Shown here piece after piece: positions 33,114 through 46,145 of a stretch of 64,000 bases of DNA. The stretch's first letter is position 1, and each line of letters opens with the position of its first letter. Source of the stretch: Zobellia uliginosa. GTDB lineage: Bacteria; Bacteroidota; Bacteroidia; Flavobacteriales; Flavobacteriaceae. The DNA lies in contig NZ_JAHKPY010000014.1 in the NCBI RefSeq assembly GCF_018860745.1, positions 831,214 through 895,213 on the forward strand, read 5' to 3'. The position numbers were made by a program, and so were the translations under genes. The notes under the pieces were generated by a model that did not search any database, was not told where the DNA came from, and saw nothing but the letters and a program-made list of their open reading frames with translations.

Positions 33114-34394
33114 TTAAGAAATCTTGTCCATCTTCCCCTTAATCTCCTTCAAACACAAATTACCCAAACTACCTTCGTGCGTATGGTGAATGTCTCGTTT
33201 TGGGGTAAAAGTACCTTCTTGAATTTCTTGTCCCATTTTTTTATAGGCGTCTCTAAAAGGCATTCCGTTCTGTACCAGCTCGTTCAAAGTGTCTACACTA
33301 AACAGATAGTCATATTTTGGGTCTTCCAATATACCTTTGTTCACCTTCATTTCCTTTAGGCTGAATGTAAGAATCTCAATACAGGCTTTCATATCCTGAA
33401 TAGCCGGAACAATGATTTCCTTTACCAATTGTAAATCTCGGTGGTAACCACTTGGGAGGTTGTTTATAACCAAAGTCAACTGATTGGGTATACTTTGTAG
33501 CTTGTTACATTTACCACGTACTAGTTCAAAAACATCTGGGTTTTTCTTGTGTGGCATAATGCTACTACCAGTTGTTAACTCATCTGGAAAGGATAGAAAG
33601 TTGAAATTCTGACTCATGTACAAACAGATGTCCATCGCCAGTTTTGAAAGGGTAGCGGCAATATTTGCCATACCGAATGCGGTTGCTTTCTCTACTTTTC
33701 CACGACCCATTTGAGCAGCGACTACGTTGTATTTCAAAGTCTCAAAACCCATTTCTTTAGCAGTGAAACTACGGTCAATTGGGAAAGAACTTCCGTAACC
33801 CGCAGCACTACCAAGCGGATTTTGGTCCGCTACTTTATAAGCAGCCTCAACAAAATATAAATCGTCTATAAGACTTTCAGCATAGGCAGATAACCACAGT
33901 CCAAAAGAAGATGGCATTGCAATTTGTAAGTGGGTGTACCCAGGAAGCAATACGTCTTTATGCTTTTCGGAAAGCTCCAATAGCAAATCAAACAGTTCCT
34001 TGGTTCCTGATTTTATTTCAGAAAGCTCGTTTTTCAAATAGAGGTGCATGGCTACCAAAACTTGGTCGTTTCGTGATCTAGCCGTGTGGATTTTTTTTCC
34101 TGTATCGCCTAGTTTTTCGGTAAGTACGTATTCTATTTTTGAGTGCATATCCTCAAAAGAATCCTCAATTACAAACTCGCCTTTTTCAATGGTTTCTGCA
34201 ATGGCATCCAATTCTTTTACTAAAGCGTTCGTTTCATCGGCAGTCAATAATCCTATTTTACCTAGCATTTTGGCGTGTGCCTGTGAAGCAATAACGTCAT
34301 ATTTCGCCAAGTGTAAATCTAGTTCGCGGTCGTTTCCAACAGTAAAATGGTCTATTTTTTTATCGGTGCTAAAGCCTTTGTCCCAGAGTTTCAT
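33114..34394 (-). CDS. argH: Argininosuccinate lyase
   Basis: Final step of arginine synthesis: argininosuccinate to arginine and fumarate. Fumarase/aspartase superfamily; motifs HTARSRNDQV near residue 103, PGYTHLQIAMP near 152 and the signature TTGSSIMPHKKNPD near 268-281, which contains the catalytic Ser. Length 426 is slightly short compared with about 460 in E. coli but usual in Bacteroidota. It is the last biosynthetic gene of the arg/pro cluster, separated from argE by a four-helix-bundle gene. Confidence 0.95.
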   Translation of the reverse strand: MKLWDKGFSTDKKIDHFTVGNDRELDLHLAKYDVIASQAHAKMLGKIGLLTADETNALVKELDAIAETIEKGEFVIEDSFEDMHSKIEYVLTEKLGDTGKKIHTARSRNDQVLVAMHLYLKNELSEIKSGTKELFDLLLELSEKHKDVLLPGYTHLQIAMPSSFGLWLSAYAESLIDDLYFVEAAYKVADQNPLGSAAGYGSSFPIDRSFTAKEMGFETLKYNVVAAQMGRGKVEKATAFGMANIAATLSKLAMDICLYMSQNFNFLSFPDELTTGSSIMPHKKNPDVFELVRGKCNKLQSIPNQLTLVINNLPSGYHRDLQLVKEIIVPAIQDMKACIEILTFSLKEMKVNKGILEDPKYDYLFSVDTLNELVQNGMPFRDAYKKMGQEIQEGTFTPKRDIHHTHEGSLGNLCLKEIKGKMDKIS

Positions 34395-34422
34395 TTTTTA
34401 GTTATAAGTTTTAAGTTTATAG
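34395..34422. repeat. Short imperfect AT-rich repeats flanking the four-helix-bundle gene
   Basis: Degenerate direct and inverted copies of agttataagttttaag and tttatagttaaaag occupy the argH side, and ttaactttttactaaaaac lies on the argE side (34792-34810). I infer that they mark the boundaries of an inserted cassette; they are too degenerate to be exact direct repeats. Confidence 0.35.
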
Positions 34423-34779
34423 TTAAAAGTCACTATATTTTTTGATTAAAGTAAAGGTCATTTTCTGGACCTCATCGCATAAGGCAAAAGTATCCTCTAA
34501 GTCTGTTTCAGCCAGAAATCCAATTCTTTTTGATATCTCCAATTGTGTTTTTACTTCATTAATAGATCCGTTGGAAATTTCTAAAAATTGGCGAAATACT
34601 TTCTTTGATTTCCTTCCGGTTCCTTCTGCAATATTGCTAGGTATGGAAACGGCGCATCTTAATATTTGGCTTGTAAGTCCAAATTTTTCCTCGGCAGGAA
34701 AATTAGATGTCAATTTATAAACTTTTTCAACTAAGGTCATTGACTTTTGCCAAACAATAAGCTCTTTATAATTATACAT
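34423..34779 (-). CDS. Four-helix-bundle (S23/IVP-type) protein
   Basis: 118 residues with the family signature YKELIVWQKSMTLVEKVYKL (residues 4-23), RCAVSIPSNIAEGTGR (42-57) and a C-terminal helix pair. The family includes proteins encoded in 23S rRNA intervening sequences; the cellular role is unknown. It sits alone between argE and argH within the arginine cluster, bounded by AT-rich repeat-like spacers, which suggests an insertion that left the operon in frame for expression. No catalytic residues. Confidence 0.88.
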   Translation of the reverse strand: MYNYKELIVWQKSMTLVEKVYKLTSNFPAEEKFGLTSQILRCAVSIPSNIAEGTGRKSKKVFRQFLEISNGSINEVKTQLEISKRIGFLAETDLEDTFALCDEVQKMTFTLIKKYSDF

Positions 34780-34807
34780 CTTGGAACTATTAACTTTTTA
34801 CTAAAAA

Positions 34808-35872
34808 CTATTTTATAAATCCTTTTAATAAGTTAATATACAAATCAATACCGTCTTCAATTTCTTTGACGTAGATATATTCATCTGCCGAATGCGAACG
34901 AGTGCTGTCGCCAGGTCCTAACTTAAGAGATTGGCAAGTTAAGGCAGCCTGGTCAGAAAGTGTAGGAGAACCATAGGTTTTTCTTCCCAATGCAATTCCT
35001 GATTGTATAAGTGGATGGTCTTTGGAAATAGCCGAAGAATTTAATCGTAATGACCGTTCTTTTAATTCGCAAGGTGCTTCTTTCTTCAGTAACTCAGCTA
35101 TTTCTGCATTGGTGTATTTATCGTTTACACGTACGTCAATAACCAAATCTACCTGAGCAGGTACAACATTATGTTGTGAACCGCCGCTAATTTGGGTGAC
35201 AGTCAACTTAACCGGACCTAAAACTTCTGATACTTTTGGGAACTTATAATTTTTAAACCACTCCAATACTTCAATGGTATTGTAAATGGAGTTGTCATTG
35301 TTTGGATGTGCAGCGTGAGAAGGTGTACCTTTTATCACGGCATCAAAAACAATAAGTCCCTTTTCGGCAATAGCCAAATCCAATAGGGTAGGTTCACCAA
35401 CAATAGCAACATCAATTTTAGGAAGTATTTCCAATAATCCTCGTAAACTATTTGGACCGGCAGTTTCTTCTTCCATAGAGGCTACCATTAAAATATTATG
35501 ATTGAGGTTTTCCTCAGCATAATAGTGGGTAAAAGTTGCAATCAATGAAACCAATGGGCCGCCAGCATCATTACTACCTAAACCGTATAATTTTCCATCC
35601 TCAATATGCGGGTTGAAAGGGTCTCTAGTATAAGCTGAATTCGGTTTTACCGTATCGTGATGCGAGTTTAAAAGCAGGGTAGGTTTGCTTTCGTCAAAAT
35701 GTTTGTTCACCGCATAAACGTTGTTGATGTGGCGTTTGAACGGAATATTAAAAGACGTAAACCAGTTTTCAATGGCGTCCGCAGTTTTGTCCTCCTCAGA
35801 TGAAAACGATTGAATCGAAATTAGTTCTTTTAATAAATCTATCGCTTTTTGCGTTAATGCTGCTTGTTCCAT
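34808..35872 (-). CDS. argE: M20-family N-acylornithine/N-acylcitrulline deacylase
   Basis: Zinc-dependent deacylase. Motifs: LLNSHHDTVKPN (metal His and Asp) near residue 71, GSNDAGGP near 98-105, catalytic MEEETAGPNSL near 131-141, and the dimerisation domain with TPSHAAHPNNDNS. Because the cluster has the ArgF' carbamoyltransferase, the substrate is probably N-acylcitrulline rather than N-acetylornithine; that is inference from the known Bacteroidota pathway. Two bp after argB. Length 354. Confidence 0.9.
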   Translation of the reverse strand: MEQAALTQKAIDLLKELISIQSFSSEEDKTADAIENWFTSFNIPFKRHINNVYAVNKHFDESKPTLLLNSHHDTVKPNSAYTRDPFNPHIEDGKLYGLGSNDAGGPLVSLIATFTHYYAEENLNHNILMVASMEEETAGPNSLRGLLEILPKIDVAIVGEPTLLDLAIAEKGLIVFDAVIKGTPSHAAHPNNDNSIYNTIEVLEWFKNYKFPKVSEVLGPVKLTVTQISGGSQHNVVPAQVDLVIDVRVNDKYTNAEIAELLKKEAPCELKERSLRLNSSAISKDHPLIQSGIALGRKTYGSPTLSDQAALTCQSLKLGPGDSTRSHSADEYIYVKEIEDGIDLYINLLKGFIK

Positions 35873-35874
35873 TT

Positions 35875-36648
35875 TTATAGGGTAAGAGTCGTGAATAAAG
35901 TAGATTTAGGGTCTAACATGCTAATATCTCCAATATGCACCTGATGTACATTTTTTTGTAAAGCGTGAAAGCAACTTTCCATTTTAGGAAGCATACCGTC
36001 AGCAATGATTTTCTGTTCCAGCAAGGTTTGGTAGGATTTGGTATCAATATGTTTTACTACGGAATCATCGTCGTTCACATTCATAAGAACACCTTTTCTT
36101 TCAAAACAATAGTAAAGTGTAGTTTCATAGTTTCCGCTCATGCCAATAGCGAGTTCGGAAGCAATGGTATCTGCATTGGTGTTTAGTAATTGACCTTTGC
36201 CATCATGTGTCATGGCACAGAAAACAGGAGTAAGGCCAGCTTCTAAAAGCTTTGTAATAGTATCTCTGCTAACGCCATCAACATCTCCTGCGTAACCATA
36301 ATCAATATCTTTTACGGGTCTTTTATGTGCTTGAATGGTATCACCATCCGCGCCGCTTAATCCAATAGCATTACAGTTATGCGACTGCAATTCTGCTACA
36401 ATATTTTTATTTACAAGTCCGGCGTAAACCATGGTAATCAGCCCTAAGCTATCCTCATCGGTAATACGGCGCCCATCAATAAGTTTAGATTTGATACCTA
36501 ATCTGGTTCCCAATTTGGTGGCTAGTTTTCCTCCGCCGTGGACCAATATTTTAAGGCCTTCCAATTCGGAAAATGCTTTTAGGAACTTAGAAAGTTCTTC
36601 TTTATTTTCGATGACGTTTCCGCCTATTTTTATAATGGATAATTTCAT
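35875..36648 (-). CDS. argB: Acetylglutamate kinase (N-acylglutamate kinase)
   Basis: Amino-acid kinase fold: phosphorylates N-acyl-glutamate. N-terminal IIKIGGNVIEN (residues 5-15), LVHGGGKLATKLG near 36, substrate Arg in IDGRRITDE near 58, ALGLSGADGD near 96 and CFAMTHD-like FCAMTHDGKGQLLNTNADTIA near 145. Length 257. Two-bp gaps on either side (argF' upstream, argE downstream) show tight coupling. No N-terminal helix for arginine feedback inhibition is seen, so end-product control may act elsewhere, for instance at the leader. Confidence 0.95.
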   Translation of the reverse strand: MKLSIIKIGGNVIENKEELSKFLKAFSELEGLKILVHGGGKLATKLGTRLGIKSKLIDGRRITDEDSLGLITMVYAGLVNKNIVAELQSHNCNAIGLSGADGDTIQAHKRPVKDIDYGYAGDVDGVSRDTITKLLEAGLTPVFCAMTHDGKGQLLNTNADTIASELAIGMSGNYETTLYYCFERKGVLMNVNDDDSVVKHIDTKSYQTLLEQKIIADGMLPKMESCFHALQKNVHQVHIGDISMLDPKSTLFTTLTL

Positions 36649-36650
36649 GC

Positions 36651-37586
36651 CTACTGTTCCAGGATTTTTTTCAATACAATCTGCGCCGCATAGGTTCGGT
36701 TATTTGCCTGTTCTATAACAAGCGATTGGTCACCATCTAAAACAGCATCTGCAACAACCATATTTCTGCGCACGGGAAGACAGTGCATGAATTTAGCGTT
36801 ACCCACTTTTTCTGGGGTCATCGTCCAGTTTTTATCTTGGTTCAATACTTTTCCATAGTTGGAATAGCTACTCCAGTTTTTTACGTAAATAAAATCTGCA
36901 TTTTCACAAGCCTTTTTCTGGTCGTATTCAATAGTGGTGCTTTTCGTAATTTCAGGATTAAGTTCGTATCCTTCAGGATGTGTAATAACAAAATCGGCAT
37001 CTTGTAAATGCATCATCTCCACAAAAGAATTGGCAACTGCATGCGGTAATGCTTTTGGGTGTGGTCCCCAAGAAAGCACCACTTTAGGTCTCGCTTTTGT
37101 ATTTTGTTCGGCCAGAGTAATGGCGTCGGCCAAGGCCTGTAATGGGTGACCTACCGAACTTTCCATATTTACGATGGGTACGCTTGCGTATTTTTTAAAA
37201 CCGTTTAAAACTTTCTCCGCTTCATCTTCTTCTTTATTCTGTAATCCAGCGAAAGCTCTAATGGCAACAATATCGCAATACTGGGAAATAACCTGTGCAG
37301 CTTCCTTAATGTGCTCAGAAGTACCTTGGTCCATAACAGTACCATCGGCATATTCTAAAGCCCAACCTTCACTTCCAAAGTTCATAACAATAACGTCCAA
37401 TCCAAGGTTCATAGCAGCTTTTTGAGTGCTTAACCGCGTACGAAGACTGTTATTGAAGAACAGCAAACCAATAGTTTTATCCGAACCTAGGTTTTTATGC
37501 TTTCTAGGGTCTTCTTTTAAGTCTCGGGCTTCTTCCACCCAATTGTCCAACGAATCTATGTCTTGTAAGGAAAGGTAATGTTTCAT
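36651..37586 (-). CDS. argF': N-acylornithine carbamoyltransferase (AOTCase/SOTCase type)
   Basis: Transfers carbamoyl phosphate to N-acyl-L-ornithine, giving N-acylcitrulline. FFNNSLRTRLSTQ (43-55) is the carbamoyl-phosphate loop in the form seen in the Bacteroides fragilis N-succinylornithine enzyme; HPLQALAD and the HCLPVRRNM motif are present. At the position that decides acyl specificity (Pro90 in the B. fragilis succinyl enzyme, Glu92 in the Xanthomonas acetyl enzyme, from memory of published work), this protein has Ser90 (QGTSEHIKEA). Acetyl versus succinyl is thus not settled. Length 311; upstream of argB by 2 bp. Confidence 0.92.
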   Translation of the reverse strand: MKHYLSLQDIDSLDNWVEEARDLKEDPRKHKNLGSDKTIGLLFFNNSLRTRLSTQKAAMNLGLDVIVMNFGSEGWALEYADGTVMDQGTSEHIKEAAQVISQYCDIVAIRAFAGLQNKEEDEAEKVLNGFKKYASVPIVNMESSVGHPLQALADAITLAEQNTKARPKVVLSWGPHPKALPHAVANSFVEMMHLQDADFVITHPEGYELNPEITKSTTIEYDQKKACENADFIYVKNWSSYSNYGKVLNQDKNWTMTPEKVGNAKFMHCLPVRRNMVVADAVLDGDQSLVIEQANNRTYAAQIVLKKILEQ

Positions 37587-37640
37587 TTGTGTTCTGTTTC
37601 TCTGGCTATTCTTACTTATTTTCTGTGGATGTATTCTGTA

Positions 37641-38429
37641 TCAATGGTCTTCTAAAAAGTGACCGTCTTTTGTTTTTATTTTGGTATGTTTTCCCGAACC
37701 GGCAAAAGCATCTGTAATGAAGCTGTCGTTCAAGCCGTTTACAATCCAGGTTTCAATACCGGCTTCTTGGGCAATGGTTGCAGCTTCAACTTTGGATTGC
37801 ATACCACCAGTACCGTGCGATGATTTGCCCGAGCTAACTTCTTGTTGTAAACTAGAGACGCCTAGTACTTCGGGAATGGTCTCTGGTTGCCCGTTGTCTA
37901 TTGAAATTTTGGTATATATGCCATTTGTGTTGGTGGCAATCATTAAAAGGTCTGCTTTAAGTAATGCCGCCGTCAATGCCGCCAACTTATCGTTATCACC
38001 AAATTGAATCTCATCTGCAGCCACCGTATCGTTCTCGTTAATAATCGGTATGAAATTATTTCCAACTAAAATATCGATGGTATTTTTAATATTGGCTTTG
38101 GATTTTGGATTCTCAAAATCTGAGTACGATAAAAGACACTGTGCAGAAAAAAGGCCAAGCTCTCTAAAGCTTTCTTGAAACATGCGCATTAAATGCGGTT
38201 GTCCAATAGCAGCTAAGGCTTGCTTCACGTTAATCTCTTCTCCGTTATGCTCTAGTTTTACGAATTGTTTTGCTGCCGCTATGGCTCCAGAACTTACGAT
38301 GACAAACTCATAGTTGTCCTTGAGCACCGCAATTTGCCTACCTATATCCTCTATCTTTCCCCGGGAAATCTGATTCGTTTCCTTGGTTAAGGTGTTTGAG
38401 CCTATTTTTAATAAAATCCTTTTTTTCAT
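37641..38429 (-). CDS. proB: Glutamate 5-kinase
   Basis: First step of proline synthesis: ATP-dependent phosphorylation of glutamate. Amino-acid kinase fold: LLKIGSNTLTKE (residues 5-16), VSSGAIAAAK near 45, IPIINENDTVAADE near 131-144, FGDNDKLAALTAALL near 147, and GTGGMQSKVEAA near 210. Length 262: the C-terminal PUA domain of the 367-residue E. coli enzyme is absent, as in other short ProB proteins. It lies inside the arginine operon between proA and argF'. Confidence 0.95.
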   Translation of the reverse strand: MKKRILLKIGSNTLTKETNQISRGKIEDIGRQIAVLKDNYEFVIVSSGAIAAAKQFVKLEHNGEEINVKQALAAIGQPHLMRMFQESFRELGLFSAQCLLSYSDFENPKSKANIKNTIDILVGNNFIPIINENDTVAADEIQFGDNDKLAALTAALLKADLLMIATNTNGIYTKISIDNGQPETIPEVLGVSSLQQEVSSGKSSHGTGGMQSKVEAATIAQEAGIETWIVNGLNDSFITDAFAGSGKHTKIKTKDGHFLEDH

Positions 38430-38474
38430 TAGGTGTTCTTTTACTTCATTGGGGCGCCAAAGAGTATTTGAAAT

Positions 38475-39674
38475 TTACCCTCTTGTTTGCCCGTTTCCTT
38501 TTACATACCACTTATTGGTTACCAAATGCTGAAGCCCGATAGGGCCTCTTTGGTGCAATTTATCTGTACTGATGGCAAGTTCACCACCTAAACCAAATTG
38601 ACCTCCATCTGTAAAGCGAGTGGAAGCATTGTGGTAGACTGCTGCAGTATCTACATTGTTCATAAAGTACTCAGCCTTTTCATTGTTTGCAGTAATAATA
38701 GCTGCTGAATGGCCACCACCGTAGGTGTTTATTTTTGATATAGCATCTTCTAAACTTGAGCTTTGGCCAATTACTATTTTGTAATCTAAAAACTCCTCAT
38801 ACCAAACATTGTCATCTTCTATCTCTTTAGTTCCTTCCATTCCGGCTATGGCGTCATCGGCTTGAATTTCAACATTGCTCTTCTGTAATTCTTGAATTAA
38901 ATGCTGAAGAAACTGTTGTTTACGAGGTAAATCCGAAGAAATTAAAACTTTATCTACCGCATTACAGGCAGATATTTTAGTTGTTTTACCATTAATGATG
39001 ATATCTATGGCCATTTCCAAATCGGCTTCTTCACCTACATAAACAAAATTGTTTCCACGGCCACTTATAATTACTGGGCATGTAGCATGTTGTTTTACAA
39101 AAGCAATCAACCTTTCACCACCTCTAGGTACAATCAAATCTACTTTTTGGGTAGGTTTTTCAAGAAAAGCCTGCGTTTCCTTTCTGTCGAACTGTAGATA
39201 GGTAACCCAATCAATTTCGGCTTCGTTGGCTTCAAGGGCCTTGTGCCATAAATCGACTAAAAATAAATTACTGTTCAGCGATTCTTTTCCGCCTTTTAAT
39301 AGTATTTTATTTCCCGATTTAAAAGCAATTCCAGCAGCCTCAATAGTAACATCGGGCCTAGATTCATAAATAATCAGAATTGTTCCGAAAGGAGCAGTTT
39401 TATTACTCACCTGCATACCATTGTCGTGCTCAAAACTAAAACGCTCAACACCTAATGGGTCTTCTTGTGCCGCAAGTTGTTGCAGGCTCAAAATCATACC
39501 ATCTATTTTTCCTTGGTCAACTTTAAGACGATCACGCATAGCAATATCATCACCTAAATAATTGTCCATATCTATTTTGTTGGCCTCTAGAATAGCAGTC
39601 CGTTCTTTTTGCAACAGTTGCGCCATGTCTAAAAGTACAGCGTTACGTTTTTTTATGTCCAATAGTAAGCTCAT
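38475..39674 (-). CDS. proA: Glutamate-5-semialdehyde dehydrogenase
   Basis: Reduces gamma-glutamyl phosphate to glutamate semialdehyde with NADPH. Aldehyde-dehydrogenase fold; motifs IIYESRPDVTIEAAGIAFKSGNK near residue 101, DLIVPRGGERLI near 179, catalytic Cys in TKISACNAVDKVL near 230, and C-terminal TDGGQFGLGGELAISTDKLHQRGP. Length 399. Its start overlaps the argD stop by one base, so translation is coupled. Confidence 0.95.
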   Translation of the reverse strand: MSLLLDIKKRNAVLLDMAQLLQKERTAILEANKIDMDNYLGDDIAMRDRLKVDQGKIDGMILSLQQLAAQEDPLGVERFSFEHDNGMQVSNKTAPFGTILIIYESRPDVTIEAAGIAFKSGNKILLKGGKESLNSNLFLVDLWHKALEANEAEIDWVTYLQFDRKETQAFLEKPTQKVDLIVPRGGERLIAFVKQHATCPVIISGRGNNFVYVGEEADLEMAIDIIINGKTTKISACNAVDKVLISSDLPRKQQFLQHLIQELQKSNVEIQADDAIAGMEGTKEIEDDNVWYEEFLDYKIVIGQSSSLEDAISKINTYGGGHSAAIITANNEKAEYFMNNVDTAAVYHNASTRFTDGGQFGLGGELAISTDKLHQRGPIGLQHLVTNKWYVKGNGQTRG

Positions 39675-40798
39675 TACAATTCTGCTTTTAAGGCGGTGAA
39701 AAATGTATCTAAATAGGCTTCGGTAATATTTAAAGCAGGAAGAACCCGCAATACATGCTTATCCTTTGCGCCTCCGGTAAATAGTTTTTGATTGTGAATC
39801 AATCGTTTTCTTAAATCGGCTATCTCAAAATCAAATTCAAGACCTAACATTAGTCCTCTACCTTTTACTTTTTTGATTTGTGGTATTTCTGCGGCTAACG
39901 CCCTGAAATATCCTTCTAAATGCGCTGCGTTTTCAATGAGTTTTTCATCTTCCAATACTTCTAGAACAGCTAAAGTAGCCACGGAAGCCAAATGATTTCC
40001 TCCAAAAGTAGTTCCTAATAATCCGTAGGAAGCTTTGATGTCTTCATGGATTAAAATGCCACCCACAGGGAAGCCATTGCCCATGCCTTTCGCAACCGAA
40101 ATAATATCTGGTTGTATGTTGTGATGTTGAAAAGCAAAGAATTTACCGCTTCTACCAAAACCACATTGTACTTCATCTGCAATAAGTAAAGCTTCGTTGG
40201 CTTTAGCTAATGCTGCAATTTTTTGAAAAAACTCAGTAGTTGGCTCGTCCAAACCACCAACACCTTGTATGGTTTCTATGATAACCGCGCAAACATCCCC
40301 TTTTTCTATTTCAGACTCAAATGCCTGTAAGTCATTGAAAGGTAAAAAAGTCACCTTTTGCTGTAAATTAATAGGCGCGTTTATCTTTGGATTGTCCGTT
40401 GCGGCAACCGCAGCAGAAGTACGACCGTGAAAGCCGTTGGTAAATGCTATAATCCTAGATTTACCGGTATGGAAAGAAGCTAGTTTTAACGCATTCTCAT
40501 TCGCTTCCGCTCCTGAATTACACAAAAATAAATTGTAATCATCGCAATCTGAAAGGTGACCTAATTTTATAGCCAATTTCTCTTGCAATGGGTTTTTTAC
40601 TGAGTTACTGTAAAAACCTATTTTATTCAACTGATCGGTCAGACGTTTTACGTAATGTGGGTGCGAATGGCCAATAGAGATTACAGCGTGTCCTCCGTAG
40701 AAATCTAAAAAATCTATTCCTTTGTCATCGGTTACTACAATTCCCTTTGCCGAGACTGGGGTTACATCGTATAATGGGTAAACATCAAATAAATTCAT
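39674..40798 (-). CDS. argD: N-acylornithine aminotransferase
   Basis: PLP-dependent aminotransferase (class III) making N-acylornithine from N-acylglutamate semialdehyde. Motifs: FLDFYGGHAVISIGHSHP, CNSGAEANENALKLA, FHGRT, LIADEVQCGFGRSG, and the PLP Lys in SVAKGMGNGFPVGG. An open frame runs up to 40822, but the ATG at 40798 (MNLFDVYPLYDVTPV) is chosen, since family members start there. Its 3' end overlaps proA. It probably also serves ornithine/acetylornithine interchange, as is common. Confidence 0.93.
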   Translation of the reverse strand: MNLFDVYPLYDVTPVSAKGIVVTDDKGIDFLDFYGGHAVISIGHSHPHYVKRLTDQLNKIGFYSNSVKNPLQEKLAIKLGHLSDCDDYNLFLCNSGAEANENALKLASFHTGKSRIIAFTNGFHGRTSAAVAATDNPKINAPINLQQKVTFLPFNDLQAFESEIEKGDVCAVIIETIQGVGGLDEPTTEFFQKIAALAKANEALLIADEVQCGFGRSGKFFAFQHHNIQPDIISVAKGMGNGFPVGGILIHEDIKASYGLLGTTFGGNHLASVATLAVLEVLEDEKLIENAAHLEGYFRALAAEIPQIKKVKGRGLMLGLEFDFEIADLRKRLIHNQKLFTGGAKDKHVLRVLPALNITEAYLDTFFTALKAEL

Positions 40799-40852
40799 AA
40801 CTTTTGTTGTTGTGCTGATCATAGCTTTGACACATTTTATTAGCGAGGGATT

Positions 40853-41653
40853 TTACAACTGACCCTCTTTAATTCTACTGATTTTTTCGTAGGAAGCTAC
40901 AATTCCCTGTATTAGGGAAGAACTAAGTCCTTGATGTTCCATTTCGTTCAGACCTTGGATAGTACAGCCTTTTGGGGTTGTTACCTTATCAATCTCTGCT
41001 TCTGGATGGCTACCGGATTCAATTAACAAGCTAGCGGCACCACTACAGGTGTGCATGGCTAATTCCTGTGCTTCTTTAGCATCAAAACCTAACTGAATGG
41101 CACCTTGGGTGGTAGCGCGTATTAAACGCATCCAAAAAGCGATGCCACTGGCACAGATTACTGTTGCGGCTTGCATTTGTGTTTCAGGAATTTCCATTGA
41201 GTGTCCCATGCGATTAAAAATAGCTTTCGCTAAGTCAATTTTCTTTTTACCCTTTAAATTGCTACAAATACAAGTCATGGATTTACCCACAGAAATAGCT
41301 GTGTTAGGCATACTTCTGATAATGTTATGGTCAGAACCAATGATAGCTTCCATTTTAGCAATGCTGAAACCCGTAATGGTAGAAATAACTACATGATTTT
41401 CGGTTAACAAACCTTTAGTGCTTTCCAAGATATTCTCAAGCTGGCTAGGTTGAACCGCGAGAATGATAATGTCAGAATTCTTTACAGCCTCAGTATTATC
41501 GGAGGTTATGGTTACGTTGCCGTAATTGGCATATTCTTCTATTTCAGCAGTGTTTCTCTTGGTAAGGTACATGGTTGTAGCACCGTTAGAATTTAGAATT
41601 CCTTTTGCAATGGAAAGTCCTAGATTACCCGCTCCTATAATGGCTATTTTCAT
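40853..41653 (-). CDS. proC: Pyrroline-5-carboxylate reductase
   Basis: Final proline step: reduces 1-pyrroline-5-carboxylate with NAD(P)H. N-terminal Rossmann motif IAIIGAGNLGLSIAKG; mid-region IIRSMPNTAISVGKSM; C-terminal signature ELAMHTCSGAASLLIESGSHPEAEIDKVTTPKGCTIQGL-type, spread over about residues 205-245. The ATG at 41653 (MKIAII) is preferred over an in-frame TTG at 41659. Gaps: 72 bp from argC, 54 bp to the preferred argD start. Confidence 0.94.
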   Translation of the reverse strand: MKIAIIGAGNLGLSIAKGILNSNGATTMYLTKRNTAEIEEYANYGNVTITSDNTEAVKNSDIIILAVQPSQLENILESTKGLLTENHVVISTITGFSIAKMEAIIGSDHNIIRSMPNTAISVGKSMTCICSNLKGKKKIDLAKAIFNRMGHSMEIPETQMQAATVICASGIAFWMRLIRATTQGAIQLGFDAKEAQELAMHTCSGAASLLIESGSHPEAEIDKVTTPKGCTIQGLNEMEHQGLSSSLIQGIVASYEKISRIKEGQL

Positions 41654-41725
41654 TTTCAAAATTTTGGTTGTTTCCGTTTTAAGTCTAATGGAATCTTATT
41701 GCGGAAATAGTTTTCTTGTTAATTG

Positions 41726-42700
41726 CTAAAAAACGCCGGCTTTAAGGTTAAGGCCTGTACCTTCTTTAAAGCCGAAAATAAGGTTCATATTCTGAACCGC
41801 CTGTCCTGATGCACCTTTGAGCAAATTATCTATGGCCGAGGTGATAAGCAACCTGTTTTCATGCTTATGCAAATGAATATGGCACTGATTGGTATTTACA
41901 ATTTGTTTTAGGTGGATAGGCTCCTCAGCTACTTGTGTGAATAGCGCATCCGCATAAAACTCCTTATATAAAGCAATAGCTTCTTCTAAAGTGCCGTCAT
42001 ACTCGGTGTAAGCTGTAGCTAGAATACCGCGGGTAAAGTTTCCGCGGGTTGGAAGAAAGAACAACTCACCTGAGTCTGATTGCAACGATTTTAAACTTTC
42101 GTTTATTTCGCCTAAATGTTGATGAGTGAACGGTTTGTACCAGCTCACATTGTTATTTCTCCAACTAAAATGAGATGTAGCAGAAGGACTAACTCCTGCA
42201 CCAGTACTACCGGTAACCGCATTGATATGAACGGTATGTCCTAATTTGTTTACTTTGGCTAAAGGTAAAAGTGCTAATTGAATAGCTGTTGCAAAACAAC
42301 CCGGGTTTGCGATATAATTCGCCTTTTTAATTGCTTCTTTTTTAAGTTCCGGAAGTCCGTAAACAAACTCCTTTCCTTCAAAAACAGCATCGGCCTGTAA
42401 TCTGAAATCGTTGCTGAGGTCTATTATTTTGGTGTTTTCAGAGAACTTGTTTTCCTGTAGGAATTTAGAGGAATTACCATGACCCAGACATAAGAATACT
42501 ACGTCTACATCAGGATTGATTTTTCCTGTAAATTCCATTTCAGTGGTTCCCAATAAATCAGCATGCGCCGTTGTAACTTTCTTGCCAGCTCTGGTTGTAC
42601 TGAAAACAAAATCTATTTCAGCTTCAGGGTGATGCAAAAGAATTCTAATGAGTTCTCCGCCCGTATAACCAGAACCGCCAATAATTCCTGTTTTAATCAT
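41726..42700 (-). CDS. argC: N-acyl-gamma-glutamyl-phosphate reductase
   Basis: NADPH-dependent reduction of N-acylglutamyl phosphate. Rossmann motif GIIGGSGYTGGELIRILLHHPE, substrate Ser/Thr region CLGHGNS, catalytic Cys in ANPGCFATAIQLALLPL near residue 134, and the C-terminal dimerisation region. Length 324 is typical. Its start overlaps the argG stop by 8 bp, indicating coupled translation. Confidence 0.95.
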   Translation of the reverse strand: MIKTGIIGGSGYTGGELIRILLHHPEAEIDFVFSTTRAGKKVTTAHADLLGTTEMEFTGKINPDVDVVFLCLGHGNSSKFLQENKFSENTKIIDLSNDFRLQADAVFEGKEFVYGLPELKKEAIKKANYIANPGCFATAIQLALLPLAKVNKLGHTVHINAVTGSTGAGVSPSATSHFSWRNNNVSWYKPFTHQHLGEINESLKSLQSDSGELFFLPTRGNFTRGILATAYTEYDGTLEEAIALYKEFYADALFTQVAEEPIHLKQIVNTNQCHIHLHKHENRLLITSAIDNLLKGASGQAVQNMNLIFGFKEGTGLNLKAGVF

Positions 42701-43883
42701 TGTTCTGATTTACGTGGTTATATATTTTTCCAGAATTGGAAAGTATTTTTATAAAACCTTTTGCATCATCAGCAGACCATCCTTTGTTCACTTCACCGTA
42801 GCTACCAAAAGCATCGGTCATTAAATCATGTTTAGACGAAATTCCGTTTAATCTAAACTGAAAAGGGTAAAGACTTAGGAAAACATCACCAGAAACATTC
42901 TTTTGCGTGTCTGTTAAGAAGGCTTCAATATTTCTCATTACAGCATCTAGGTAGTTGCCTTCATGTAATAACATTCCATAGAAGTTACCTTGTTGTTCTT
43001 TTTGGAATTGTTGCCATTTGGTTAAGGTATGCTTTTCTAGTAAGTGGTGTGCTTTTATGATAATTAATGCAGCGGCAGCTTCAAAACCAACTCTACCTTT
43101 TGTACCAATAATGGTATCACCAACATGAATATCTCTACCAATAGCATATTTAGAAGCCATAGCTTCTAACTTTTCTATATTGGCAACAGGAGTATCTTTA
43201 ATACCATCAATAGCAACCAATTCACCTTTTTCAAAGGTTAGCTTTACATCCGTAGGCTCTTTTTCTTGTAATTGACTTGGGTATGCACTGTCTGGCAATG
43301 CATTTTGAGAAGTCAGTGTTTCTTCACCACCAACAGAGGTTCCCCAAAGACCTCTATTTATAGAATATTTGGCTTTTGCCCAAGGATAATCCACACCATT
43401 TTGCTTTAGATATTCAATTTCCGCTTCTCTGGCTAGTTTATTATCTCTAATTGGGGTTATAATTTCAATTTCAGGAGCAATGATTTGAAAAATCATATCG
43501 AATCTCACTTGATCGTTACCAGCTCCTGTACTACCATGAGCGATATAATCAGCACCAATTTTTTTGGCATAAGTTACTATCTCTATAGCTTGCACAATTC
43601 GTTCTGCACTAACAGATAGGGGATATGTATTGTTTTTTAAAACATTTCCAAAGATGAGATATTTTACAACTTTATCGTAAAAAATCTGAACGGCATCAAT
43701 AGAAGTGTAGGAACTGGCACCCAATTCTATTGCTTTCTCTTTTATAGTAGCAATTTCTTCTTTAGAGAAACCGCCAGTATTTACACTTACTGCATGTACA
43801 TCAAAACCTTGTTCTTGTGATAGGTATTTAGCGCAGTAGGAAGTGTCTAATCCGCCGCTGTATGCTAAAACTAATTTTTTCAT
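42693..43883 (-). CDS. argG: Argininosuccinate synthase
   Basis: ATP-dependent joining of citrulline and aspartate. N-terminal PP-loop LVLAYSGGLDTSYCAKYL (residues 4-21), ADYIAHGSTGAGNDQVRF near 113, and SINRGLWGTSVGGEE near 176. Length 396. It is the second gene after the GNAT gene (53-bp gap) and overlaps argC. The deacylated citrulline comes from argF' plus argE activity. Confidence 0.95.
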   Translation of the reverse strand: MKKLVLAYSGGLDTSYCAKYLSQEQGFDVHAVSVNTGGFSKEEIATIKEKAIELGASSYTSIDAVQIFYDKVVKYLIFGNVLKNNTYPLSVSAERIVQAIEIVTYAKKIGADYIAHGSTGAGNDQVRFDMIFQIIAPEIEIITPIRDNKLAREAEIEYLKQNGVDYPWAKAKYSINRGLWGTSVGGEETLTSQNALPDSAYPSQLQEKEPTDVKLTFEKGELVAIDGIKDTPVANIEKLEAMASKYAIGRDIHVGDTIIGTKGRVGFEAAAALIIIKAHHLLEKHTLTKWQQFQKEQQGNFYGMLLHEGNYLDAVMRNIEAFLTDTQKNVSGDVFLSLYPFQFRLNGISSKHDLMTDAFGSYGEVNKGWSADDAKGFIKILSNSGKIYNHVNQNND

Positions 43884-43936
43884 TTTAAAAATTGTATTGT
43901 CTCGGCCATTATTAAATAATTCAATGACCTATTAGG

Positions 43937-44569
43937 TTATTCGTTTGTTTTCTTTTTAAGAAAAAGAGACTCTTTAATACTTTTGAGTCTTTTGAAAGCT
44001 TTACTGTTGATATGTTCTTTTTCAACTTTTTCAACTTTTTTCTCCTTTGCATCTGAGTCGTAAAGCATACCTGTACAAAGGCACATTTTGCGTTCGGTAC
44101 GCGTAAGAATATCAAAGTTTTTGCATGTCTGACAGCCTTTCCAAAATTCTGGATCATCAGTTAGTTCAGAAAATGTAACCGGTTTGTAACCAAGTTCATA
44201 ATTCATTTTCATTACGGCCAAGCCAGTAGTGATACCAAATATTTTAGCATCCGGGAACTTCTCTCTCGAAAGCTCGAAGATTCTTTTTTTAATTTTTTTG
44301 GCCAATCCTTGATTTCTATAATCAGGGTGGACTATGAGGCCGGAATTCGCTACGAATTTCTCGTGTCCCCAGACTTCTATATAACAGAAACCGGCAAATT
44401 TGTCGCCATCTAAAGCAATAACAGCATTGCCATTTTCCAAACGTTTTAGAATATATTCTGGTGTACGTTTAGCTATGCCGGTACCTCTTACCTTAGCAGA
44501 TTCCGTAATGGTATCACTAATGATTTGAGCGTATTTGAGATGAGACTTGTTAGCAATAATTATATTCAT
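43937..44569 (-). CDS. GNAT acyltransferase, candidate N-acylglutamate synthase
   Basis: First gene of the arg/pro operon. GNAT fold with the acetyl-CoA motif A region VHPDYRNQGLAKKIKKR near residues 80-96 and VMKMNYELGYKPV near 119. The C-terminus adds a Cys pair set, CQTC (146-149) and CLC (163-165), that looks like a zinc site, then a Lys/Glu-rich tail. The cluster has no classical argA or argJ, so N-acylation of glutamate is the inferred role. The ATG at 44569 (MNIIIANK) is preferred to the in-frame TTG at 44575. Confidence 0.85.
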   Translation of the reverse strand: MNIIIANKSHLKYAQIISDTITESAKVRGTGIAKRTPEYILKRLENGNAVIALDGDKFAGFCYIEVWGHEKFVANSGLIVHPDYRNQGLAKKIKKRIFELSREKFPDAKIFGITTGLAVMKMNYELGYKPVTFSELTDDPEFWKGCQTCKNFDILTRTERKMCLCTGMLYDSDAKEKKVEKVEKEHINSKAFKRLKSIKESLFLKKKTNE

Positions 44570-44590
44570 TGCCAAAAGGGTTTAAATTGT

Positions 44591-44639
44591 AAAAAAAAAT
44601 GAATTGTTGGTCGTTTAGCGGAAATGGACTCACCTATTC
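44591..44639 (-). terminator. Candidate leader terminator with nine-U tract upstream of the GNAT gene
   Basis: On the minus strand, GAATAGGT (44639-44632) can pair with ACC and ATTC (44612-44602) around a loop; one base later comes a run of nine T (44599-44591). An alternative GGAA-x-GG/CC-x-TTCC hairpin occupies 44640-44620. The stem is weak and interrupted, but the U-run 22 nt before the first gene of an operon, after a short leader ORF, is where an attenuator terminator would be. Confidence 0.4.
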
Positions 44640-44738
44640 CCATGAAATATACACACCCTTACGGGCGACGGCGAGAAGCCGGGCGAACAGGAGCAAGATT
44701 GCTCAAAGTGTTAAATATGTGTCTTTGTCCTTTCATGG
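44640..44738 (-). ncRNA. Structured attenuator leader of the arg/pro operon
   Basis: Minus-strand RNA of about 99 nt. Outer stem CCATGAAA/TTTCATGG (44738-44731 with 44647-44640), then ACACA/TGTGT (44722-44718 with 44655-44651), enclosing three hairpins: GAGCA-atct-TGCTC (44704-44691), CGGC-ttctc-GCCG (44681-44669) and CCC-GTAA-GGG with a GNRA loop (44665-44656). The 5' edge coincides with the predicted transcription start. The three inner hairpins lie within, or end at, the leader ORF, so ribosome movement would open or close them. It does not match a riboswitch class that I recognise. Confidence 0.6.
44659..44736 (-). CDS. Arg/Pro-rich leader peptide (25 aa), candidate attenuator peptide
   Basis: ATG at 44736, TAA at 44661-44659; too short for ordinary ORF calling. 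The peptide starts MKGQRHIFNT and ends NLAPVRPASRRRP. Five of 25 codons are Arg (AGA at 5, CGC at 18, 22 and 24, CGT at 23) and three are Pro (16, 19, 25), in an AT-rich genome and directly before an operon that makes both arginine and proline. The start lies only a few nt after the predicted transcription start, so it may be read from a nearly leaderless mRNA. Stalling at the Arg-Arg-Arg-Pro stretch would change the hairpin choice in the leader. Confidence 0.7.
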   Translation of the reverse strand: MKGQRHIFNTLSNLAPVRPASRRRP

Positions 44739-44743
44739 AAAGC

Positions 44744-44751
44744 CAAATGTA
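44744..44751 (-). promoter_or_regulatory. -7 promoter element of the arg/pro operon
   Basis: TACATTTG on the minus strand matches TAnnTTTG. It predicts transcription starting at about 44738-44740, just before the leader ATG (44736). The -33 region has only a weak CTTTA at about 19 bp spacing. Confidence 0.5.
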
Positions 44752-44783
44752 CAAGATTATGACGAAAGTATAAAGGTGCTCCG

Positions 44784-46145
44784 TTAATTTTTGCGAAAAA
44801 TAACAAATTGCTCTTTAGAGTTAAAAATTTCGTAAATCAAAAACACATATACAGAAATATATTCAACGGTGATTAAGGTTAGATTTTCTTTAAAGTCGGC
44901 CTGCGAATACGCATAGTAGCTGAGAACCACAGTGGCTGACCAAAGTACCGCATATTTGTATCTGGTAAATACACCTAATACCACCAAAAAGATGATATAC
45001 CACGGGTGTACCGTGGCTGACATAAAATAATACAAAGTAAGTACGGCCATCATCGAGGTAATTAATGTTGGTATTTTTTGATTGTCTCTTAGAAAAGTGA
45101 ACAGCAGGACAAATAGAATTGTGACTATAGGTGTTATTTTTCCGTAGGTTTTTATAAGTTCCCAGGGCTTTCCGTCATACTGGATAGCAATATATTTTAC
45201 AACATTGTATATTCCAGCATTAAATTCAAAGTTTGAAAACCAGAGTCCAACGGTTTTCGAGTAGTTCGCAATGAAGTCAGGTGAATAGAAAGGAACAAAT
45301 AAGAGCAGGCATGTGATGCCAATAATACTGTAAAAACTTATACTTTTTTTAAATCCTAAATGCTTTAGAAAAAGGGGTAGAAATAGCAAAGGTACCAGTT
45401 TGACACAAATAGACAGAGCATAAGGAATAGCTGCAAGAGCCCATTTTTTTGTGGATAGTAGATGAAGAGCCCACACAAAAAAGAAAAGCATAACACCTTC
45501 AAAATGCAAGTTTCCAGTTAGTTCTATAATAATCAAAGGATTTAAGAAATACCAAAAGATGAGGTGGGGTGAGTGGTTTAGGTTCTTCAATAGTTTTCTT
45601 CCAAAGTAAAAGATACCTACATCAGCTAAAATAATCATGGTTTTGATAGCGAGTACAGAACCTATTAAGCTTTTACCTCCTATTAGCGCAGCTATTGCGA
45701 AGAGCAATTGATTTAATGGCGGGTAGTTGCTAAAATGCTTTGCACTTAGGCTACCCATACTATCATAAAGAAGTTGAGCATTGGGTATGACCAAATCACT
45801 CTGGGCGATTAAGTCATTCGGGACTTCTAGATAAGGATTGATAAAGTTGGCAACTAGATGACCGTCCCAAACAAAACGAAAATAATCCTGGGAAAGATTA
45901 GGTTCCGTAGTTAAGAATATCAATCTAAAGATGATGCCTGCAACCAATAAAAATTTAAAGTTCCATTTTTCAAACTGTATGAGTTTGAAACACAGAAAAA
46001 AAGAAGCGGCAAAAAGTGTTAAGAGCTTAATAAAATCCGTGCGCTCTAAATGGAAGGCAAAGGTGTAATAAAAAATAGCCGCCAATAGCGCCATGAGAAT
46101 AGAGACTTGGTGAAGCTTCCAGTATGTAGTGAAACGATTGGGCAT
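44784..46145 (-). CDS. Integral-membrane mannosyltransferase-like protein (GT87/DUF2029-like)
   Basis: 453 residues with about ten or eleven transmembrane helices and little soluble sequence. A luminal Asp motif TEPNLSQDYFRFVWDGHLVANFINPYL near residues 75-101 resembles the catalytic DY/E loop of polyprenyl-phosphate-sugar-dependent transferases. AVHPWYI-like TVHPWYIIFL occurs near 385. With the upstream DPM1-like gene it suggests transfer from a lipid-linked sugar. The acceptor is unknown. Confidence 0.75.
   Translation of the reverse strand: MPNRFTTYWKLHQVSILMALLAAIFYYTFAFHLERTDFIKLLTLFAASFFLCFKLIQFEKWNFKFLLVAGIIFRLIFLTTEPNLSQDYFRFVWDGHLVANFINPYLEVPNDLIAQSDLVIPNAQLLYDSMGSLSAKHFSNYPPLNQLLFAIAALIGGKSLIGSVLAIKTMIILADVGIFYFGRKLLKNLNHSPHLIFWYFLNPLIIIELTGNLHFEGVMLFFFVWALHLLSTKKWALAAIPYALSICVKLVPLLFLPLFLKHLGFKKSISFYSIIGITCLLLFVPFYSPDFIANYSKTVGLWFSNFEFNAGIYNVVKYIAIQYDGKPWELIKTYGKITPIVTILFVLLFTFLRDNQKIPTLITSMMAVLTLYYFMSATVHPWYIIFLVVLGVFTRYKYAVLWSATVVLSYYAYSQADFKENLTLITVEYISVYVFLIYEIFNSKEQFVIFRKN

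Follow-up and report, generated by a model that had tools for sequence, protein, structure and literature searches.

In the his, trp and leu attenuators, a leader ORF close to the promoter is rich in codons for the amino acid of the operon and is combined with ribosome-sensitive hairpins. TnaC is an arrest peptide: when tryptophan is present, it halts the ribosome on the stop codon. The speF leader of Salmonella contains orf34, a short ORF with consecutive Arg codons; pausing of its translation, whether on these codons or on the stop codon, determines how a hairpin immediately 3' of the stop folds (PMC6386406). In its passages on the leader, that paper reports no Rho-independent terminator and describes control by Rho, RNase G and folding (PMC6386406). 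Strong clues for leader-peptide attenuation before amino-acid operons have also been mentioned for Flavobacterium psychrophilum (PMC9723704). A search of titles and abstract starts in the open-licence literature found no described arginine leader RNA of Flavobacteriaceae. The earlier note on this DNA knew of no dual Arg/Pro sensor in Bacteroidota; for leader-peptide control as such, a lack of precedent there would be too wide a claim given the clues in F. psychrophilum, and leader-peptide attenuation had already been mentioned in Flavobacteriaceae (PMC9723704).

The element was found in a 64,000-nucleotide stretch of Zobellia uliginosa DNA (the window), where it lies on the minus strand. A -7 box, TACATTTG of the TANNTTTG class (44744..44751), stands 7 nt ahead of the leader ATG, and TAnnTTTG is the sigma-A box of Flavobacterium (PMC9723704). 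Judged from this box, transcription probably starts within a few nt of the ATG, which supports the nearly leaderless mRNA proposed in the earlier note. The leader ORF, MKGQRHIFNTLSNLAPVRPASRRRP, has 25 codons (44659..44736; ATG 44736-44734, stop codon TAA 44661-44659), and its frame is kept in relatives. It contains 5 Arg and 3 Pro codons, as the earlier note had stated, and its C-terminus reads RPASRRRP. The terminal Arg run CGC CGT CGC (44665..44673) shows CGY bias across relatives, and one more Arg codon, CGC, lies at 44683-44685.

Alignment of the upstream regions showed that the end of the leader ORF falls within conserved RNA consisting of a hairpin P1, a U-rich linker and a hairpin P2. 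P1 (CGCCC-GUAA-GGGUG, 44654..44667) uses the last Arg and Pro codons as its 5' arm, and the stop codon of the leader sits inside its loop. The linker (44642..44653) is U-rich and G-poor over relatives. P2 (44620..44641) is made of a covarying 6-bp outer stem, a bulged A, a GG/CC step and the loop UGAGU, with a loop consensus, AGGUGWGUCC, that is near-invariant across relatives. The earlier note lacked both hairpins, which are the most conserved part of the element. A spacer that is G-poor over relatives (44570..44619) leads to the first gene of the operon, which encodes a GNAT-domain protein (43937..44569, probable ATG at 44569).

The remaining operon, argG through argH (33114..43883, minus strand), was assigned from domain matches and gene order, and the order after the GNAT gene is argG, argC, proC, argD, proA, proB, argF', argB, argE, 23S-IVP and argH. 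The ORF thus stands ahead of an operon for both arginine and proline, as the earlier note had claimed. argC, proA, proB, argB and argH were matched to Pfam domain class only and take their names from domain plus order. In an NCBIfam run on six genes, argG and proC scored above the equivalog cut-off and the rest were best matches below it; the argF' product is a carbamoyltransferase whose best match is N-acetylornithine carbamoyltransferase. The gene of a 23S rRNA-intervening-sequence protein (PF05635; 34423-34779, minus strand) lies inside the operon between argE and argH, and was matched in one of 40 other arginine operons (L262).

Like the his, trp and leu attenuators, this locus has a promoter-close leader ORF rich in codons for the product, placed before hairpins. 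Unlike in those attenuators, no canonical intrinsic terminator/antiterminator pair was found, the Arg codons lie in the hairpin's own arm, an extra hairpin with a conserved loop (P2) is present, and some genera have tandem leaders. With orf34 it shares a short Arg-codon ORF next to a hairpin at the stop. However, speF makes putrescine, not arginine, and orf34 also answers to ornithine; speF starts 484 nt after the orf34 start with its RBS sequestered (PMC6386406), whereas the first gene here starts about 90 nt past the leader stop; and here the hairpin contains the stop codon, and folding predicts no start sequestration. The attenuation mentioned for F. psychrophilum concerns the same family and amino-acid biosynthesis operons, compared here without a named operon or structure (PMC9723704). 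Genus g146, which is Flavobacterium at a guess, has no match to our covariance model and carries a different leader ORF.

The distribution of the element was first approached through the GNAT protein. A search in 60 genomes gave 34 positives, a sample selected on GNAT rather than on the leader. The GNAT gene was present in 26 of 37 family members (window genome counted), and the loop motif stood upstream of it in all 26 (L002-L027). Arg-Arg-Pro was read at P1 in 24 of these 26 loci; in L023 and L027 the frame continues past P1. The motif was absent from the four other-family loci used for comparison (L028-L031), four further GNAT hits outside the family being left out. The 11 family members without the GNAT gene gave no match to the covariance model either; of the ten among them that were tested for argG, eight gave no match, one matched weakly and in part, and G024 has the gene, which stands there behind a different protein.

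The covariance model, built from ten loci, matched 236 of 397 family genomes and 152 of 237 genera (E 0.01), with one match each. In a phylum sample 15 of 296 genomes matched at E 0.05, and the two matches outside the family were weak (E 0.03-0.04). In an order sample 11 of 148 genomes matched at E 0.01, all within the family. The well-sampled genus g146 gave zero matches in the family, phylum and order sets, though argG was present in 8/8 of its genomes tested; members that have argG but lack the element count against the sensor reading given below. A pattern scan of named genomes found at least 117 stretches; among the 80 pattern matches listed, the names were mostly Flavobacteriaceae (Maribacter, Winogradskyella, Arenibacter, Robiginitalea, Kordia, Mangrovimonas), and a few records were named to class, order or phylum only.

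The element was present in 243 of 251 loci (L002-L252), which is not an independent figure because the loci were picked by GNAT, model or pattern, and it lay 250 bases or less before GNAT in 238 of the 243. Two of the remaining five end at the locus border. The other three, L059, L085 and L204, carry a dissimilar second protein in GNAT's place behind the same leader. The GNAT domain was found in the first proteins of L085 and L204, the L059 protein being left out of the domain search, and argG follows the first gene in L059 and L085, the L204 stretch ending before it. Since the element precedes the operon even with a different first gene, it is tied to the operon and not to one gene. Both kinds of first-gene protein may be the missing acyl-glutamate synthase. 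Among longer stretches picked from GNAT or model hits, argG and more arginine genes followed GNAT in 40/40.

A stop of the leader ORF lies at or near the expected place in 209 of 210 unique loci. The leaders end in RRP (195), PRP (8) or otherwise (6; n=209), counts that include L023/L277 and L027/L280, whose frames are misassigned (P1 loop without stop) and which were also kept in the Pro counts. The frame test used 202 unique loci with a clean P1 stop, of which 70 have, in the interval where it would be expected, TANNTTTG with an ATG 3-12 nt downstream. The promoter-proximal ATG was in frame and open in 70/70, against a chance expectation of 1 in 3 that is uncorrected for common descent; the frame conservation for which the earlier note had asked a check is thus found in Flavobacteriaceae relatives. 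The spacing between box and ATG was exactly 7 nt in 49 of the 70 and 5-9 nt overall. Ten leaders of Zobellia and Pseudozobellia differ by one whole-codon in-frame indel and by synonymous changes (CCT/CCA/CCC, AAT/AAC), plus some replacements.

Codon choice was counted in 202 leaders ending in P (duplicates removed). At codons -4 to -10, which the P1 stem does not reach, Arg fills 404 of 1414 positions, and 378 of these 404 codons are CGY. All 862 leader Arg codons comprise CGC 429, CGT 360, AGA 32, AGG 24, CGA 10 and CGG 7. The CGY share is 789/862 (92%) in the leader; the GNAT frames of these loci reach 369/1402 (26%), and AGA is their commonest Arg codon (537/1402). The GNAT-selected sample has 80 Arg codons at -3 to -11, of which 72 are CGY. 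The kept frame and the CGY-biased run support Arg codons that are positioned to be read by the ribosome. P1 alone would force Arg-Pro at the last two codons, so an unselected ORF, or coding incidental to an RNA element, was considered; with 70/70 ATGs in frame and Arg enriched outside P1 as well as in a second leader ORF (below), we regard it as extremely improbable.

A second lineage (group B) has tandem Arg leaders, ORF1 and ORF2. Group B comprises 53 loci; L009, L097, L014, L027 and L022 were excluded by hand, and loci without a fitting ORF pair were also dropped. ORF1 has about 23 codons and is preceded by a promoter-like box of its own, such as MKNLKNKIRCSVPGLPARNRRRRF in L154. ORF2 ends at P1, and 48 of the 53 loci offer it a start codon at a distance of 30 or 31 codons from that end. 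Arg accounts for 265 of 1217 ORF1 codons, and 232 of the 265 are CGY. ORF1 lies outside all search patterns of the collection, but a minimum of three Arg was required in choosing it, which somewhat inflates its Arg share and leaves its CGY share unaffected. It ends in RRF or RRR in 27 of the 53, and terminal Pro was found in none of the 53. Its Pro codons are mostly CCC (70/87). The 5' half of ORF1 pairs with a U-rich stretch before ORF2 in a long-range stem (e.g. L136, L088, L154); its own partner beat swapped partners in 48 of 53 loci (means -11.5 versus -9.1 kcal/mol, relatedness uncorrected). By eye, ORF1 often has a hairpin over its own stop codon.

The uniform leader ends raise the possibility of a nascent-peptide arrest, in which a C-terminal RRP-stop would stall the ribosome at the stop in response to arginine. 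RRP does end 195 of 209 leaders, and lengths are near constant, being 25-28 codons in 67 of the 70 testable single-ORF leaders with an ORF2 start codon at 30 or 31 codons in 48 of 53 tandem loci. A TnaC-type peptide would show an invariant terminal Pro and conserved upstream residues; here the terminal Pro has exceptions and no upstream residue other than Arg is conserved. Apart from Arg-Arg-Pro, the sole frequent residue is Arg at -4 (130/202), any other upstream residue reaching at most 72/202. The frame runs beyond the P1 loop in L023, L027 and L071. The presence of a terminal Pro goes with the P1 stem: L014, whose stem is altered, ends in VRA before the stop, so that Pro is lost and Arg kept, and 0/53 ORF1 leaders end in Pro. 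The CGY bias points to decoding, not to the residue. We therefore consider such an arrest quite improbable.

The earlier note had proposed a dual sensor for arginine and proline. Pro is frequent at codons -4 to -12 (302/1818), proC is present in 37 of the 40 operons examined (missing from L280, L282 and L290), and the CCC preference of ORF1 gives mild support, though we read that preference as RNA pairing. However, proA or proB is present in 17 of 40 operon stretches and absent from 23, and the mean number of Pro in the 15 leader codons that precede the terminal codon was 1.35 with proA/proB versus 1.22 without (p 0.65; two wrong-frame rows sit among the 23). The internal Pro codons of the main leader show no codon preference, and the terminal Pro is accounted for by P1, in line with its absence from ORF1 ends. 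Since Pro codons do not track proA/proB, the dual sensor is unsupported, and we hold it very unlikely.

The structure of the RNA was assessed by covariation in 100 loci out of 129 diverse ones, with the alignment fitted to the model. Pairing was kept in 96.9% of cells, and double changes occurred at 6/6 outer P2 pairs. The whole structure gave 103 double-change cells versus 24.6 in shuffled controls, and sliding the partner gave 0 to 37. P1 is almost invariant, partly due to pattern and model selection. Its support consists of four G-C/G-U changes and a single replacement of C-G by A-U, which stems from L014, whose stem differs wholly. It has at most 5 pairs, and 24 of 97 cells lack the outermost one. 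In 106 loci that were not pattern-selected, the P1 loops were GTAA (87), GTAG (6) and others (thirteen). For the terminal Pro, 196 of 202 leaders use CCG, to which pattern selection contributes; a fixed CCG there versus evenly spread internal Pro codons suggests selection on the loop as RNA. The distance from the stop to the P2 loop is 26-30 in 205 of 209 loci, and 196 of 207 unique loci have 50-68 nt between the P2 loop and the GNAT start.

Known RNA families were compared as well. cmscan found no relevant Rfam family in window positions 43800-45200 (E up to 10) or in 10 loci (E up to 1), which speaks against a T-box, a known riboswitch, Flavo-1 or Bacteroid-trp. GUCCY-hairpin, Flavo-1 and Bacteroid-trp are listed as candidate structured RNAs of Bacteroidetes, the first with no Rfam entry in that table (PMC2864571 Table 1). 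P2 may be identical with GUCCY-hairpin, although that name suits it poorly, because the base after GUCC in P2 is mostly A or G.

The conservation of P2 suggests a further explanation, in which P2 would be the main sensor, either an aptamer specific for arginine or a hairpin bound by a protein, and the leader ORF would supply a second input. Its loop is near-invariant on a covarying stem (GGTGAGTCC in 175, GGTGTGTCC in 31, GGTGCGTCC in 3 and GGTGCGCCC in 1 of 210 loci), the model matches once per genome, TAGGTGWGTCC has a single exact match in the window's whole genome, and the predicted P2 probability (0.64-0.75 in 99 folded leaders) hardly depends on ribosome position. On the other hand, Arg-rich short ORFs stand before the operon without P2 outside the family (L029, L031, L304; by eye), and the element is small for an aptamer, with no ligand or protein known. 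We regard P2 as an unlikely main sensor. Pairing of the P2 loop elsewhere in the leader was rejected, as no complementary segment up- or downstream follows its A/U change.

Ribosome effects were modelled by folding 99 single-ORF leaders with the ribosome footprint masked. The predicted P1 probability was 0.80 in the free leader; it fell to 0.15 when the A-site was at codon -5, and to 0 for A-sites at -4, -3, -2 or the stop. By these folds, the Arg run is so placed that a ribosome waiting on it would prevent P1 from closing. P1 is equally blocked when the stop codon is occupied, so the switch would depend on dwell time. The GNAT start region was 0.53-0.55 unpaired in every ribosome state of the 99 leaders, and sequestration of the start codon is therefore not what the folds predict.

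Other pairings were scanned in the same 99 leaders. The energetically strongest pairing, a candidate competitor of P1, is formed by the Arg codons and the GGUGA side of P2 (mean -7.7 kcal/mol); it showed no covariation (t -1.6), both partners being nearly invariant. An alignment-free pairing scan of 950 window pairs gave weak signals, the best of which joined the leader start to the region of codons -11 to -6 or thereabouts (t -5.0, relatedness uncorrected). The leader of the window was no more stable than its shuffles (z -0.67), and the full-leader fold of this species swaps P2 for a pairing with the leader start. There, the leader start UUUCCAUGAAA (44736 region) is complementary to the linker plus P2 5' arm UUUCAUGGGAA (44638-44648), a pairing weakly supported in the 99 leaders.

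Termination at P1 was also examined. A loose terminator pattern was found in 44 of 118 single-ORF leaders (10.0 expected; 74 without the pattern) and in 22 of 49 tandem leaders (1.4 expected). The U tract after P1 is interrupted and strongest 9-12 nt past the stem. With a stem of at most 5 pairs and an interrupted U tract, P1 is no canonical terminator. Pausing at Arg codons, read out through a stop-codon hairpin without an intrinsic terminator, is nevertheless workable, as the orf34-speF leader of Salmonella shows (PMC6386406). The spacer behind P2 contains 4.5% G versus 12.7% for 27 window genes, which is compatible with Rho- or RNase-dependent loss of the transcript but proves nothing.

Taken together, the sequences and predicted folds suggest that the element is probably a cis-acting arginine sensor of the leader-peptide type, in which a waiting ribosome holds P1 open. 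We infer the mechanism, including its sign and readout, as follows. When charged arginyl-tRNA is scarce, the ribosome would dwell on the Arg run and keep P1 from forming, and with P1 held open the operon would be expressed under arginine shortage. When charged arginyl-tRNA is plentiful, the ribosome would pass the run, reach the stop codon within the P1 loop, terminate there and leave, and P1 would fold. Folded P1, together with the linker and P2, would then lower operon expression, most likely by aborting or destabilising the transcript through a weak terminator at P1, Rho or an RNase, and not through a hidden GNAT start codon.

A two-input switch, which we consider improbable, would combine sensing at the codon level, through a single CGY leader ORF or two in tandem, with an arginine-specific P2 as the binding site of a ligand or of a dedicated protein. 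P1 would dock on the GG/CC step of P2. The stop codon would make the GNRA loop of P1, and translation termination would close the switch.

Elsewhere in the order, different short ORFs were also found ahead of this operon, and these few loci suggest that leader control is maybe older than P1 and P2. In genus g146, loci L293, L294, L295, L298 and L299 share a different conserved short ORF 304-325 nt before GNAT, e.g. MNKTSLHITSLSRTNRPTTSPEVRML in L293, with the core SR.N.P.TSPEVR behind a TACTTTTG box. This ORF lacks P1 and P2 and is not CGY-rich, and its residue-level conservation possibly indicates an arrest peptide. L304 (family f3) has TATCTTTG, 6 nt, an ATG and the ORF MNKTTKHINTLAPRFFRRPLWVLN closed by a stop codon, starting 178 nt before GNAT, with a P1-like hairpin, CGCCC-CUUGU-GGGUG, and no P2; judging from this locus, P1 possibly predates P2. 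In L296 (G024), where argG comes behind a different first gene, the region upstream carries a P1-like CGCCCCTAAGGGGC, and by eye a terminator-like hairpin, GAAAGTG-GTT-CACTTTC with TATTTTTCG, takes P2's place. A terminator scan of L029, from a sister family, was negative.

The ArgR C-terminal domain (PF02863) was found in none of 148 genomes of the order, the window's included, while 8 of 14 control genomes, a Bacteroides among them, were positive in the same search. The leader reading of arginine offers a testable answer to how arginine synthesis could be controlled in members of an order in which no ArgR was found. If the two-input switch were true, it would have replaced ArgR across a bacterial family. 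The covariance model now locates the leader in 236 of 397 sampled family genomes, and the element represents a layout for an attenuator in which no terminator is obvious and, in one lineage, the leaders are in tandem. These bacteria naturally lack Shine-Dalgarno sequences (PMC6847099), and through this element ribosome-dependent control would become testable in them.
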